IMG/VR virus record: IMGVR_UViG_3300049793_000041
Location: 1 to 37,425 of that record
Strand: one strand, 5' to 3'
DNA: 37,425 bases
Source: a virus
In this document: one piece after another, positions 6,820 to 24,325 of the stretch
How positions within the stretch are numbered: the first letter of the stretch is position 1
How the letters are laid out: each line of letters starts with the position of its first letter
Notes under the pieces: generated by a model
Told to the model about the DNA's origin: nothing
The model's input: the letters and a program-made list of their open reading frames with translations, nothing else
Database searches by the model: none
Translations under genes and position numbers: made by a program

Positions 6820-7512
6820 CTAGCGGCGTGGTTTTAGTCTGTTTTTTGTAACCGCATCATCTGGCATGATTCCTGTCTTAAGTCGGTTGTGGAAGGTTGT
6901 TATACCAATCCCAAAATGACGGCAGGCAGCTGACAAAGAAATGAATGTTTCGCCATTTATGGTTATTGGTATCAAATTTCGTCTGTTCTCACTTGCTTGT
7001 TGAGTTTGTGATGCCCATCTGCAATTATCTGGGCTGTAATGTAAATTTGGGTCTAGCCTATCAATTGAATGTGAAGGGGATGGCTTCTTGCCCATATCAG
7101 AAAAAAACGCAGAAAAATCATTAATCCATCGATCACATACACGGATTCCTCTACCTCCCCAATTCGCATAATCTTTATCACTTTCCAAATAGCATCGTTT
7201 TTTAATGCGAAGCCATGTTTTATACTCTGGAGTGGCATTGCCCCGACGTTTTTGTCCATGCGTAACAATCTTTTCAGAACGCTTCTTTATATATTCCTTG
7301 TTAGAGCCTACACTAGCGAAATGCTCAACCATGAAGCAGCCGCATGAAGAATTTTTATGTTTTCTCAGGGAAGAACCTACTCTGTCACATATGTTCCCAC
7401 AGTCGCATAGACAGCGCCATAGTGAGCCACCCAAGCCGCGCTTACGGGGGGGTAATTTTTCAAGAACTGTTAGACGGCCATATTTATGATAGGTGATATC
7501 AATAAGTTTCAT
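6820..7512 (-). CDS. HNH-type homing endonuclease, free-standing and antisense
   Basis: This 230-aa protein (from the ATG at 7512; a TTG at 7530 is the alternative) resembles phage free-standing endonucleases. The N-terminal part has a Cys-rich element with CLCDCGN and SCGCF, like zinc-binding modules of phage HNH proteins. The core contains YANWGGRGIRVCDRW, then SIDRLDPNLHYSPDNCRWAS, the typical nuclease core of the YGGRGI group. A C-terminal helix-turn-helix-like DNA-binding piece (ISLSAACRHFGIGITTFHNRL) resembles NUMOD-type modules. It is transcribed against its neighbours and sits between two lysis-region genes, as expected for a mobile gene. No self-splicing intron is evident around it. 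No strong ribosome-binding site is seen. Confidence 0.82.
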   Translation of the reverse strand: MKLIDITYHKYGRLTVLEKLPPRKRGLGGSLWRCLCDCGNICDRVGSSLRKHKNSSCGCFMVEHFASVGSNKEYIKKRSEKIVTHGQKRRGNATPEYKTWLRIKKRCYLESDKDYANWGGRGIRVCDRWINDFSAFFSDMGKKPSPSHSIDRLDPNLHYSPDNCRWASQTQQASENRRNLIPITINGETFISLSAACRHFGIGITTFHNRLKTGIMPDDAVTKNRLKPRR

Positions 7513-7548
7513 GCGCCAACTGTAACACAAACCGCAGAAAGTCTAACC

Positions 7549-17851: not shown

Positions 17852-18393
17852 GATTGCACCTCACATTTAGCGCAGAGGCGGCGCAGTTCCTTTTCTTGAG
17901 CATCCCGCGCAGCAGCCCGCGCAGCAGCCCCCGCAGCATCCCACGCAGCAGCCCGCGCAGCAGCCCCCGCAGCATCCCACGCAGCAGCCCGCGCAGCAGC
18001 CCACGCAGCAGCCCACGCAGCAGCCCGCGCAGCATCCCCCGCAGCATCCCACGCAGCAGCCCGCGCAGCATCCCCCGCAGCATCTAGTTCCTGCTGGCTG
18101 GTTTCGCCATTCGCAAAGCGTTCGACAACGTCTAACGCGTCAGTGCTGCGCTTGTCGGTCATCAGGTGCTCAACTTGGCGAGCGCACCAGACAGCGAACA
18201 AGCGTATTTCTTTATCGCGGCCCTGCACGGCGCGTAGGCACCACAGCGCATCATCAAAGCCGTTGCTGTCGAGTACCTGCACTATGCTGACCGGCTCATC
18301 GTCGGCCTTTGTCTTGTTGAGAGTGCGCAGCAGCTTGGCCCAGCCTTCGTGGCATGGCGAGTGTTTGCGAATTTGATTTAGTGTGGTTTTCAT
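17848..18393 (-). CDS. Ala-rich tetrapeptide-repeat protein
   Basis: This 181-aa protein has an N-terminal helical domain (residues 1-100) with ALWCLRAVQGRDKEIRLFAV, WCARQVEHLMTDKRSTDALD and VVERFANGETSQQEL, a pattern I recall from small bacterial and phage proteins of unknown role. Residues 105-164 are 15 consecutive tetrapeptides of the form A-A-[G/R/W]-[A/D], which would make one long Ala-rich helix with Trp and Arg at regular intervals. The last 17 residues are charged with two Cys. The ribosome-binding site is AGGAAG. It follows the 28-aa membrane peptide near PL. Repeat number probably varies between relatives. Confidence 0.72.
   Translation of the reverse strand: MKTTLNQIRKHSPCHEGWAKLLRTLNKTKADDEPVSIVQVLDSNGFDDALWCLRAVQGRDKEIRLFAVWCARQVEHLMTDKRSTDALDVVERFANGETSQQELDAAGDAARAAAWDAAGDAARAAAWAAAWAAARAAAWDAAGAAARAAAWDAAGAAARAAARDAQEKELRRLCAKCEVQS
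17902..18081 (-). repeat. In-frame 12-bp tandem array, 15 units
   Basis: Exactly 15 units of 12 bp lie head to tail. On the coding strand each is GCTGC followed by G/T/C-GG and then GAT or GCT, encoding A-A-G/R/W-A/D. A higher order of three units (G, R, W) is visible in most of the array, implying past expansion in 36-bp blocks. Other frames are also open across the array, but these are by-products of the repeat. Confidence 0.9.
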
Positions 18394-18520: not shown

Positions 18521-18550
18521 AGTATAGCGTAAAAGTTTTCGACATGTAAA
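18521..18550 (-). promoter_or_regulatory. Early leftward promoter PL
   Basis: On the minus strand TTTACA (18550-18545) and TATACT (18526-18521) are separated by 18 bp. Each differs from the sigma-70 consensus at one position. It sits upstream of the whole leftward gene run and diverges from PR, with a perfect palindrome overlapping its -35 box. Confidence 0.7.
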
Positions 18551-18557
18551 GTACTTT
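18548..18557. promoter_or_regulatory. Operator candidate between PL and PR
   Basis: AAAGTACTTT is a perfect 10-bp palindrome that overlaps the PL -35 box and lies 20 bp before the PR -35 box. A dimeric helix-turn-helix protein such as the Cro-like product of 18637-18870 could bind here and shut down PL. No second identical site is evident. Confidence 0.45.
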
Positions 18558-18576
18558 TTAAAGAGACAAATTAACG

Positions 18577-18605
18577 TTGTAGAATTGCGAAATGTGATAT
18601 ATGAT
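18577..18605 (+). promoter_or_regulatory. Early rightward promoter PR
   Basis: TTGTAG (18577-18582) and TATGAT (18600-18605) are separated by 17 bp; the -10 box matches consensus at five of six positions. The ATG inside the -10 region is therefore not the start of the downstream gene, which begins at 18637 after AAGGAAG. Confidence 0.6.
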
Positions 18606-18873: not shown

Positions 18874-19596
18874 ATGCGCTACGAGTCACCAAAAACAGCT
18901 ATGGGTAACATCGGAGTTTCTTACATATCGGCTGAAAAAGCGGCAAATCAAGCGGAAGAAATGGATAATAACGGCTGCAAGTACTGCACGGGCTGCAAGT
19001 ACTGCACGGACTGCACGGGCTGCAAGGGCTGCACGAACTGCACGGGCTGCAAGGTCTGCACGGACTGCACGGGCTGCACGGGCTGCAAGGGCTGCAAGGG
19101 CTGCACGGACTGCACGTACTGCACGTACTGCACGGACTGCACGGACTGCACGGGCTGCACGGGCTGCAAGGGCTGCAAGGGCTGCACGTACTGCACGTAC
19201 TGCACGGACTGCACGGACTGCACGGGCTTTGTTTCTGGAAAGCCTGGAATCAGTCCAGAGCAGCAAGTCGAAAACTTGGACAAGGTGGCCGCTATCATCT
19301 TGCATGACCAGGCACGACTGGAAATGAGTCTGTGGCACAAAGATGAATCTTGGCGAGACAAGACTTGTGCCGAAGAGGCTGTTTGCGGCACAACGCACTG
19401 CCTTGCAGGATGGTTACAAGTTTGCTCGACTGATCCAGAAATCCGAAACAAAGCGCCTGAAGTTGGCGGCGCTATGCAAGCACCTATTGCCGAGAAGCTG
19501 TTCTATCGTGGCTCCGATGAAGTTATCGCATGGCTCAAAGGCCGCGAATACGTCAAGGAATTGGGCGTTGTTGAAGGTGGCGAGTCGGTCAAATGA
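18874..19596 (+). CDS. Cys-X-X triplet-repeat protein with a C-terminal [10 protein letters not shown] domain
   Basis: This 240-aa protein has three parts. Residues 1-34 are a short polar N-terminus. Residues 35-118 are 28 uninterrupted tripeptides Cys-(Thr/Lys)-(Gly/Asp/Tyr/Asn/Val), placing Cys at every third position. Residues 119-240 form a conserved domain with [31 protein letters not shown] (about 170-183) and [16 protein letters not shown] recall this C-terminal domain from phage and bacterial proteins where a short-period repeat precedes it. A Cys every three residues suggests a narrow helical or solenoid stack with a ladder of thiols, able to bind metal or form disulfides. The ribosome-binding site is AAGGAG. 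Function unknown. Confidence 0.72.
18976..19227 (+). repeat. In-frame 9-bp tandem array, 28 units (Cys triplets)
   Basis: The array is 28 exact-length units of 9 bp, each TGC-(ACG/AAG)-(GGC/GAC/TAC/AAC/GTC). Synonymous codons are never used: Cys is always TGC, Thr always ACG and Lys always AAG. That implies recent expansion by slippage rather than old divergence. A longer block including [15 protein letters not shown] is itself duplicated. Confidence 0.93.
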
Positions 19597-20926: not shown

Positions 20927-20971
20927 GAAAACGCTTGACGGCGGTCAATGTTGAGTGGCAATATCCTTTCT

Positions 20972-21102
20972 GTTGATGTGTGCGCGTTGACAGGATCACG
21001 AAGCCCCTTAGGCCTCGGTGTTTTCAGGGTTAAACGCCCACTTGCGCACACAAGGAAAATGCCGATACCTCAGGGGCTTTTTGCATTCAAGCGCACATCA
21101 AC
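20972..21102 (+). ncRNA. C4-like structured antisense RNA, right copy
   Basis: AAGCCCCTTAGG (21001-21012) pairs with CCTCAGGGGCTT (21068-21079) at 11 of 12 positions, followed by a T5 run (21078-21082). TCGG pairs with CCGA just inside, as in the left copy. The alternative 5' stem is GTGTGCGC (20978-20985) with GCGCACAC (21044-21051). The corresponding stem of the left copy is GTGGCAGC/GCTGCCAC, so both sides changed together. GGG-TTAAAC-GCCC forms the inner hairpin. The 5' arm GTTGATGTGTGCGC can also pair with GCGCACATCAAC just after the terminator (21091-21102), with a 2-base bulge. Such a layout is that of a C4-type antisense RNA facing its own target. The family name is inferred. Confidence 0.65.
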
Positions 21103-21238
21103 CGCACCCCGAGCGTTATCAAGCGGCCATGTTGTTGCCGGCGCGGGAGAAAAGACGATGCGCTTAACTTGCAAGGGCGGCGCGCAGACTTCGACCAGGT
21201 ACTGCAGGAACGGGCAAACAGGTGAAACAGGACGTTAG
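21059..21238 (+). CDS. Possible 59-aa leader protein reading through the RNA terminator
   Basis: An open frame starts at ATG 21059, inside the structured RNA, with AAGGAA just upstream. It reads through the terminator stem, beginning MPIPQGLFAFKRTSTAPRAL and ending with GAQTSTRYCRNGQTGETGR. Its first codons are the conserved GCCGATACC element. The antisense target at 21091-21102 falls inside it, so RNA pairing could block its translation, as in C4-controlled genes. The left copy has no equivalent long frame with a normal start. Coding status is uncertain. Confidence 0.35.
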   Translation: MPIPQGLFAFKRTSTAPRALSSGHVVAGAGEKTMRLTCKGGAQTSTRYCRNGQTGETGR

Positions 21239-21380
21239 GCCATCGTTTAATGGTCGCCCGGAAATCGAATGGTTGGCTTATAGCAGCAGTAGCACAGAAG
21301 AAACATAACCTGTGTGGCTGGAAGGAGGTATTTCACCTCTTTGCCCTTGCCACACGCCCAACTTGGAGAATGGGGAAAAT
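21239..21380 (+). other. Leader of the AN/AY repeat gene
   Basis: No gene is seen in this stretch. It contains GGAAGGAGGTATTTCACCTCTTTGCC near 21319-21344, where AGGAGGT and ACCTC can pair. A ribosome-binding-like AGGAGG is thus partly in a hairpin and no start codon follows it in frame. Together with the structured RNA upstream, the distance from 20926 to 21381 (454 bases) is mostly non-coding regulatory sequence. Confidence 0.45.
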
Positions 21381-22127
21381 ATGAATACCATGGTGAGCCG
21401 CGAGATTGCAAAAAAGGTGCTGGAAGTTGTTGATGCTGGACTGGTGAACGGTAAAGGAAATCCGATCCCCGGGCAGATGTGTGTCGAAGCGGCTGTATGC
21501 TACGCCATGGGCCTGCCACACAGCGACGAACCGAAGTGCGTAGGTGCGACTGTTCGCGGCTTCAAAATCCGCTTGAATGATTCGAAGTGGCCGACCGATG
21601 CCGACCGCACGAAAGGCATGCGCAAGCTGGCTATTGCCCAGCTTGGCAGCGACACTATCGACCAGATGGCGTTTGCCAAACATGTGGCGCTTGAGTGCCA
21701 GCTCCGCGTGCTGCCGCTGGCGCTGCGCCGCGCCGCCAGCTTCAAAGGACCGTTCGCTGAACGCCTGGAAGCAGCTGCTGTTGTGTGCGAGTCCGCAACG
21801 ACGCTTGAGCAAGCCAACGCGGCTACGCTGTACGCAAAGGCGCTGACAAAAGAAAGTCGCGCCAACGCCAACGCCAACGCCAACGCCTACGCCAACGCCA
21901 ACGCCTACGCCAACGCCTACGCCTACGCCTACGCCTACGCCAACGCCAACGCCTACGCCTACGCCTACGCCTACGCCTACGCCTACGCCTACGCCTACGC
22001 CAACGCCAAGGATTTCTGCCTGCAGGTTTTGAACCTGACTGCTGAAATTGGACTGGAAGCGCTGATCGCATGCAATTCGCCAGGCTGCGCATGGCTGGAT
22101 TTGTGCGATGAAGCGGTAGCGGTATAA
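21381..22127 (+). CDS. Ala-Asn / Ala-Tyr repeat protein
   Basis: This 248-aa protein has an N-terminal domain (residues 1-150) with [37 protein letters not shown] and [15 protein letters not shown] recall this domain in phage and bacterial proteins that carry a low-complexity insert. Residues 161-208 are 24 Ala-Asn or Ala-Tyr dipeptides. The last about 40 residues return to ordinary sequence ([20 protein letters not shown]). An alternating A-x stretch could form a small beta or helical solenoid, or a flexible stalk. Start ATG 21381 is chosen over an upstream candidate because of the good leader GGAGAATGGGGAAAAT. It is the first sure gene after the right structured RNA. Function unknown. Confidence 0.72.
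21861..22004 (+). repeat. In-frame 6-bp tandem array, 24 units (Ala-Asn/Ala-Tyr)
   Basis: Twenty-four hexamers GCCAAC or GCCTAC follow one another without interruption, differing only at one base (A or T). Codons are uniform (Ala always GCC). This is a young microsatellite that stays in frame on expansion or contraction. Confidence 0.93.
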
Positions 22128-24060: not shown

Positions 24061-24136
24061 GCTGGTTTAGCTCATTTGGAAGAGCAACGGCTTTGTAAGC
24101 CGAAGGCACTTGGTTCGATTCCAAGAATCAGCACCA
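24061..24136 (+). tRNA. tRNA-Thr (anticodon TGT), CCA encoded
   Basis: A full cloverleaf can be drawn. Acceptor GCTGGTT pairs with AATCAGC (one G-U), D stem is GCTC/GAGC, and anticodon stem is ACGGC/GCCGA with loop TTTGTAA giving anticodon TGT. Variable loop AGGCA and T arm CTTGG-TTCGATT-CCAAG complete it. A 3' discriminator A is followed by encoded CCA. It would read ACA codons. It lies between the early and late arms. Confidence 0.93.
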
Positions 24137-24292: not shown

Positions 24293-24325
24293 CGGGCTGG
24301 CGTAGAATCCCACTATGCCAGCCCG
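24293..24325 (+). terminator. Strong hairpin, possible terminator or attenuator
   Basis: CGGGCTGGCGTAG (24293-24305) pairs with CTATGCCAGCCCG (24313-24325) over 13 bp with one G-U pair, around the 7-base loop AATCCCA. Only a weak T-rich stretch follows (ATTGCTTTG), so a regulated or rho-independent attenuator is more likely than a strong terminator. It separates the early arm and tRNA from the structural genes. Confidence 0.5.

Follow-up and report, generated by a model that had tools for sequence, protein, structure and literature searches.

The C4 RNA of phages P1 and P7 is produced by processing and has a' and b' segments. The CI RNA of phage P4 arises by processing, and with seqA and seqC it forms a system of a short leader RNA and complementary sites in the same leader that is linked to termination (PMC4825925). 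IsrK, from the Salmonella prophage Gifsy-1, is a short RNA that competes with its own read-through isoform for the same pairing and that also acts in trans; its pairing with orf45 spans about 30 nt and controls the orf45 ribosome-binding site (PMC4825925). Phage HK022 has putL and putR, two related structured RNAs of about 70 nt with two stem-loops each, one per divergent early operon (PMC9378689).

Here, we describe RNA leaders in a viral contig of 37,425 nt (IMG/VR record IMGVR_UViG_3300049793_000041), the whole of which we call the window. Each leader has a predicted promoter (by consensus only), a predicted terminator, and a complementary site in the read-through part, as IsrK does. In this group of phages, both early-operon leaders contain one 5' arm with two exclusive pairings, and both pairings are kept by compensatory change.

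Two related leaders in a lambdoid phage

The contig is that of a lambdoid phage, with recognizable RecT, exonuclease, NinB, NinG, O-like replication, and terminase genes. Promoter-like sites at 18521-18550 (- strand) and 18557-18585 (+ strand) point apart. The same kind of RNA leader is found in both early operons: the right copy (20972-21102, + strand) lies 2.4 kb into the rightward operon, before the gene at 21381, and the left copy (17148-17021, - strand) lies 1.4 kb into the leftward operon, before recT (Table 1). In each copy, promoter-like hexamers precede an arm of 14 nt and hairpin 1; next come a long terminator hairpin, which contains an internal site, and a T-run. Behind the T-run come the downstream site and then 230 to 280 nt without genes: the next start codon is about 279 nt from the downstream site on the right and 233 nt on the left. 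Two alternative partners are available to the first 14 nt: an 8-nt stretch within the terminator hairpin and the downstream site, where the pairing spans 12 positions. A previous sequence-only reading had described this arrangement with the right coordinates. It had put the right downstream site 10 bases after the T-run, but the gap is 8 nt (it is 10 nt in the left copy); the internal match that it reported for the left copy is present, as 8 bp instead of 5 nt.

Table 1. Features of the right and left leaders, in window coordinates
Feature	Positions	Strand	Basis or remark
Right promoter-like -35 TTGACG, 18-nt spacer, -10 CAATAT	20935-20940, 20959-20964	+	Sequence
Right 5' arm GTTGATGTGTGCGC	20972-20985	+	Predicted first base of RNA is 20972
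Right hairpin 1	20972-20991	+	Folding, covariation
Right intrinsic terminator hairpin	21001-21082; 5' strand 21001-21012, 3' strand 21068-21079	+	Folding
Right T-run	21078-21082	+	
Right internal (kissing) site GCGCACAC	21044-21051	+	Complementary to arm 20978-20985
Right downstream site GCGCACATCAAC	21091-21102	+	Apparent 3' strand of closing helix P1 with arm 20972-20983
Right noncoding leader domain II, probably structured	21103-21380	+	Up to start codon at 21381
Left promoter-like -35 TTGCGG, 18-nt spacer, -10 AATATT	17183-17178, 17159-17154	-	Sequence, relatives
Left 5' arm GTCGATGTGGCAGC	17148-17135	-	Sequence, folding, covariation
Left hairpin 1	17148-17129	-	Folding, covariation
Left intrinsic terminator hairpin	17123-17043; 5' strand 17123-17112, 3' strand 17057-17046	-	Folding
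Left T-run	17047-17043	-	
Left internal (kissing) site GCTGCCAC	17080-17073	-	Complementary to arm
Left downstream site TGCCACATTGAC	17032-17021	-	Apparent 3' strand of closing helix P1
Left noncoding leader domain II	17020-16789	-	Up to recT

The RNA is probably promoter-driven, and a start at the arm is suggested by the conserved distance to the promoter in relatives (identified below). Across 19 members, the hexamers at this fixed distance had an average of 8.1 matches to the 12 consensus positions, compared to 5.1 (standard deviation 1.2) at random positions. The window's own promoter match is weak and does not appear in the output of a generic promoter scan. The left -35 hexamer overlaps the end of the upstream gene (stop codon at 17169-17167).

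The terminated RNAs are predicted to fold stably, with minimum free energies of -47 kcal/mol on the right (z = -4.4 relative to shuffled sequences) and -47.4 kcal/mol on the left (z = -5.7). When we searched Rfam with permissive cutoffs, no family, including that of IsrK, matched the element in the window; weak matches to P5, ssnA, mir-196, and mir-290 were taken as chance.

The window has other unusual features. The gene at 21381-22127, which has no match in PHROG or Pfam, encodes a long Asn-Ala/Tyr-Ala repeat (ANANAYAYA...) at 21860-22010, where the DNA is tandemly repeated. Two more tandem repeats, each within a reading frame, flank the divergent early promoter region: one at 18934-19266 with a 9-nt unit (similar to GGCTGCACG) and one at 17863-18118 with a 12-nt unit. 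There is also a tRNA gene at 24061-24133, followed by a strong terminator-like hairpin at 24293-24325.

Conservation of the two pairings

We computed the minimum-energy duplexes that the sequence-only reading had proposed as a check. The arm and the downstream site of the same copy pair with -19.7 kcal/mol (right) or -19.8 kcal/mol (left), while the arm of one copy pairs with the site of the other with only -11.7 or -12.3 kcal/mol. That is, the arms differ between the phage's two copies, and the discrimination is over 7 kcal/mol. The longest perfect Watson-Crick run is 9 nt on the right and 8 nt on the left; when the downstream 60 nt were shuffled 20,000 times, such runs were reached by 30 and 148 of the shuffles, respectively, so each copy alone is only suggestive. 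It is the relatives that decide whether the pairing of the arm with the downstream site is real, and they confirm it, well above chance.

We found more than 12 relatives in other phage contigs. Four clear relatives lie at the loci of RecT and NinG homologs. A descriptor (an arm, its complement inside a terminator, and an overlapping complement behind the T-run) recovered three of these four, both copies in the window, and one diverged copy (L155), and it had no hits in shuffled sequence. A pattern derived from the loop gave further relatives in viral contigs, a covariance model added two more (L011 and G002:1478-1610), and a pattern for domain II, the noncoding part of the leader beyond the downstream site, added L302, L310, and L346. 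Direct similarity searches of phage and plasmid collections found nothing, nor did a search of viral contigs with the exact terminator pattern. A pattern scan of genome contigs gave ten matches that look like chance. When the covariance model of the module was applied to 399 genomes of the order, no copy was among the eight candidates scored per genome, a depth too low to be informative. In G013, a second match (7423-7533) was discarded because it looks like coding sequence.

In nearly all of the first 16 members, the helix of arm and downstream site has at least 11 bp (counting G-U pairs); the exceptions are L178, with 10 before a mismatch, and L155, with 8. We then considered 15 aligned sequences. 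For the arm and the downstream site, 96.7% of cells are paired, 9 of the 12 pairs show two-sided changes (30 such cells), and the covariation score is 0.537; if one side is slid by 1 to 3 columns, at most 46% of cells are paired and the score is at most 0.106. For the arm and the internal site, 99.2% of cells are paired, 4 of the 8 pairs show two-sided changes (17 cells), and the score is 0.426, as compared to at most 62.5% and 0.124 after sliding. Hairpin 1 is paired in 86.7% of cells. Because the aligned sequences are related, shuffle counts should not be taken as probabilities; relatedness is, however, retained when a helix is slid. Duplexes of a member's own arm and downstream site averaged -20.3 kcal/mol, versus -12.0 kcal/mol for swapped pairs with different arms. 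Also, G-U pairs recur, which implies that the pairing occurs as RNA. We had considered terminal inverted repeats of a MITE-like element, and rejected them because the arms are not the same from copy to copy and conform to RNA pairing, G-U pairs included.

Read as compensatory changes, these data indicate that both exclusive pairings of the arm are preserved by evolution in the window's lineage. The claims that the arm has two mutually exclusive partners and that the target changes along with it are thus borne out, in both copies and in the relatives: the arm, the internal site, and the downstream site covary. We also looked for relatives in which the arm and the downstream site change independently; there were none in the window's lineage.

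Hairpin 1 and the downstream pairing also hold up when whole RNAs are folded. Hairpin 1 has a probability of 0.74 to 1.00 in the short RNA of 17 of 18 members (the exception is L155), and closing helix P1, formed by the arm and the downstream site, has a probability of 0.80 to 1.00 in the read-through RNA of all 18; the folding program leaves out the kiss between the hairpin 1 loop and the internal site. By these probabilities, the 5' end is predicted to fold in one way in the short RNA and in another in the read-through RNA.

In phages that are more distant and whose Betaproteobacteria-1 RNA (RF02932) is preceded by a terminator, the kiss is kept in 12 of 14, as a 7-nt match, as compared to an average of 3.0 (maximum 6) after swapping. 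The strict triple was found in only 4 of these 14, versus 1.6 (maximum 6) with the downstream parts swapped. We therefore regard the downstream helix as strong for the lineage to which the window belongs and as only a candidate in these other phages. In four viral contigs (L292, L304, L331, and L323), unrelated-looking hairpin loops (such as GTCGTG) lie upstream of the Betaproteobacteria-1 RNA, and these loops match both a site within the terminator and a site after it.

Domain II, the Betaproteobacteria-1 RNA, and exchange of the element

In L177, in L165, and in the second element of L163, RF02932 lies directly after the downstream site and scores above the curated cutoff. Neither copy's domain II in the window matches RF02932, even at E <= 10, so its kinship with that family is argued from where it lies and from the first module, which is shared. 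The right domain II is conserved in relatives, with insertions and deletions that are not multiples of 3. A small reading frame within it, with a Shine-Dalgarno-like start near 21155, was rejected because it is frameshifted in relatives.

Of 300 genomes from a single bacterial family, 39 had copies of RF02932. These copies often lie behind a TATACT-like box, without a terminator, and their 5' end pairs with bases just before the start of the Rfam model. For 19 copies with a long enclosed loop, their own pairs gave a mean of -13.5 kcal/mol versus -10.9 kcal/mol for permuted pairs and beat all 10,000 permutations. This test was confined to the 18 nt after the -10 box, because an unrestricted search for duplexes in all 180 upstream nt was uninformative; in a wider version of the test, the result was inflated by short hairpins in which a copy's arm and site overlap. 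As these terminator-less copies make the corresponding helix, the pairing of the arm with the downstream site may be understood as closing helix P1 of a larger RNA. The downstream site looks to be mainly the 3' strand of this helix in the read-through RNA, and the phage versions would carry a terminator and a kissing site inside it. We prefer this reading first because the site pairs in cis with its own arm in every computed read-through RNA.

The comparison to the Betaproteobacteria-1 family therefore has two sides: some relatives carry RF02932 at once after the downstream site, and the bacterial 5' end pairs before the model, but the Rfam model starts after the closing helix and lacks the arm, the kissing site, and the terminator. 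We found no paper on this RNA in the open-access literature. Our analysis adds a 5' closing helix to this orphan family and a probable attenuator to its phage versions, so that its role becomes testable.

Betaproteobacteria-1 RNAs also occur in other settings. In many phage contigs (L285 to L359), the RNA adjoins the end of a Toprim/primase-like reading frame, and in some, domain II lies directly behind a Toprim-like frame without the arm and terminator module (gene types were judged by eye). Seven bacterial genomes (G545, G601, G645, G657, G683, G563, and G615) have at least two RF02932 copies each, in the same orientation and 3 to 40 kb apart, as if in one mobile element.

Across phages, the element appears as a discrete cassette. 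In L003, whose RecT is 84% identical to that of the window, a homolog of the window's upstream gene (44% identity over 45 amino acids) lies directly before recT; the element and domain II are absent, and the record has no match to the covariance model. The first 141 nt of the element are identical in L169 (6052-6192) and L172 (605-745), followed by different domains II, while L172 and L155 have 295 of 300 nt in common from about 137 nt on. The swap point between L169 and L172 is the 3' end of P1, and in these three contigs a recombination junction appears to lie at the end of the closing helix. The downstream genes vary: they include recT, other recombination genes and ATP-binding genes, a helicase, Rha-like regulators, and O-like genes (named partly by eye). 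A divergent left/right pair occurs in three phages, with one element in each early operon as for put: the window (G000), G002 (if its ends are joined), and G005. The arms always differ within these pairs.

Proposed mechanism, alternatives, and comparison to known systems

Given the sites, the covariation seen for both pairings, the switch computed for the 5' end, and the cassette position, we think that each copy is probably an attenuated early-operon leader, with two RNA isoforms that fold the same 5' end differently. Transcription would start at the arm, which would first fold into hairpin 1, and its 8-nt loop would kiss the internal site of the terminator hairpin. We infer that both termination and read-through occur at the T-run. 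If RNA polymerase halts there, the product would be a compact RNA of about 110 nt. If it reads through, the downstream site would capture the whole arm, opening hairpin 1 and the kiss, and P1 would close around the terminator region; the operon mRNA would then be preceded by a long leader made up of P1 and the 230- to 280-nt domain, which in relatives is of the Betaproteobacteria-1 type. P1 needs a site that is transcribed only beyond the T-run, so it cannot control whether its own transcript terminates; most likely, the switch determines what becomes of the two RNAs. The two isoforms may thereby set the amount and the handling of early operon RNA. The short RNA might also invade P1 of a long RNA in trans.

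Pairing in trans could instead be the main function, as in C4, CI, or IsrK: the arm of the short RNA would act as an antisense to the read-through site and switch the early operons, for immunity or activation. The logic is known from IsrK, with its short RNA, read-through isoform, complementary downstream site, and competition in cis and in trans (PMC4825925), and the different arms of one phage's two copies, with their discrimination of over 7 kcal/mol, fit as well. We nevertheless consider this unlikely: cis pairing occupies the site in the read-through RNA, the terminator-less bacterial homologs retain the helix, no start codon or conserved small reading frame was seen at the site (by inspection), and the C4 model (RF01695) has no match anywhere in the contig, even at E <= 10. 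We are similarly doubtful that the element is structure only, that is, a static closing helix with a kiss that merely stabilizes the terminator and no regulation. The closing helix is common in the Betaproteobacteria-1 family, and the downstream site is less widely conserved than the kiss, as such a reading would have it; yet two exclusive partners of the same 8 nt have been kept through many compensatory changes, which suggests that both folds matter.

Processive antitermination by analogy with put, in which the folded leader would bind RNA polymerase and cause it to ignore terminators further down the operon, seems quite improbable to us. Each of the two divergent early operons has one element, at distances of 1.4 and 2.4 kb from the predicted promoters at 18.5 kb, a terminator-like site follows the recT and exonuclease genes (15109-15087), and the cassette precedes different genes in different phages; but no homology to put was noticed, terminator-like sites are as numerous in shuffled sequences, and many bacterial copies of domain II have no clear operon behind them. 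If either the isoform switch that we favor or an antiterminator role is true, then early genes are controlled by RNA in a way that is undescribed for this group. A broader proposal, of which we are skeptical, is that the element is a mobile, protein-free control cassette of temperate phages, whose short kissing-loop RNA and long structured RNA, made from one promoter, govern both early operons together. It would act as a put-like antiterminator, as self-specific RNA immunity, or both, with the arm and its target as a changeable specificity code, and this would give the orphan Betaproteobacteria-1 RNA family a role.

Returning to the attenuated leader with two isoforms, its resemblance to put is in the left/right placement of two related structured RNAs; no terminator with arm-complementary sites is described for put. 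The short RNA differs from the CI RNA of P4 in having its own terminator. The sequence-only reading had invoked the arrangement of C4 from phages P1 and P7, and the likeness stands insofar as here, too, a phage RNA has a complementary target further along its own transcript. The rest of that comparison does not carry over: besides the lack of an RF01695 match, the target is not at the ribosome-binding region of a reading frame but about 279 or 233 nt before the next gene, and the leader has its own terminator and a cis closing helix and no start-codon target. IsrK differs in that the pairing here covers at most 14 nt, lies 230 to 280 nt from the next gene, and is followed by a large noncoding domain. 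Still, IsrK is also a prophage leader with its own promoter and terminator, short and read-through isoforms, a complementary site after the terminator, and pairing in cis, and by analogy it seems to be the nearest described case.
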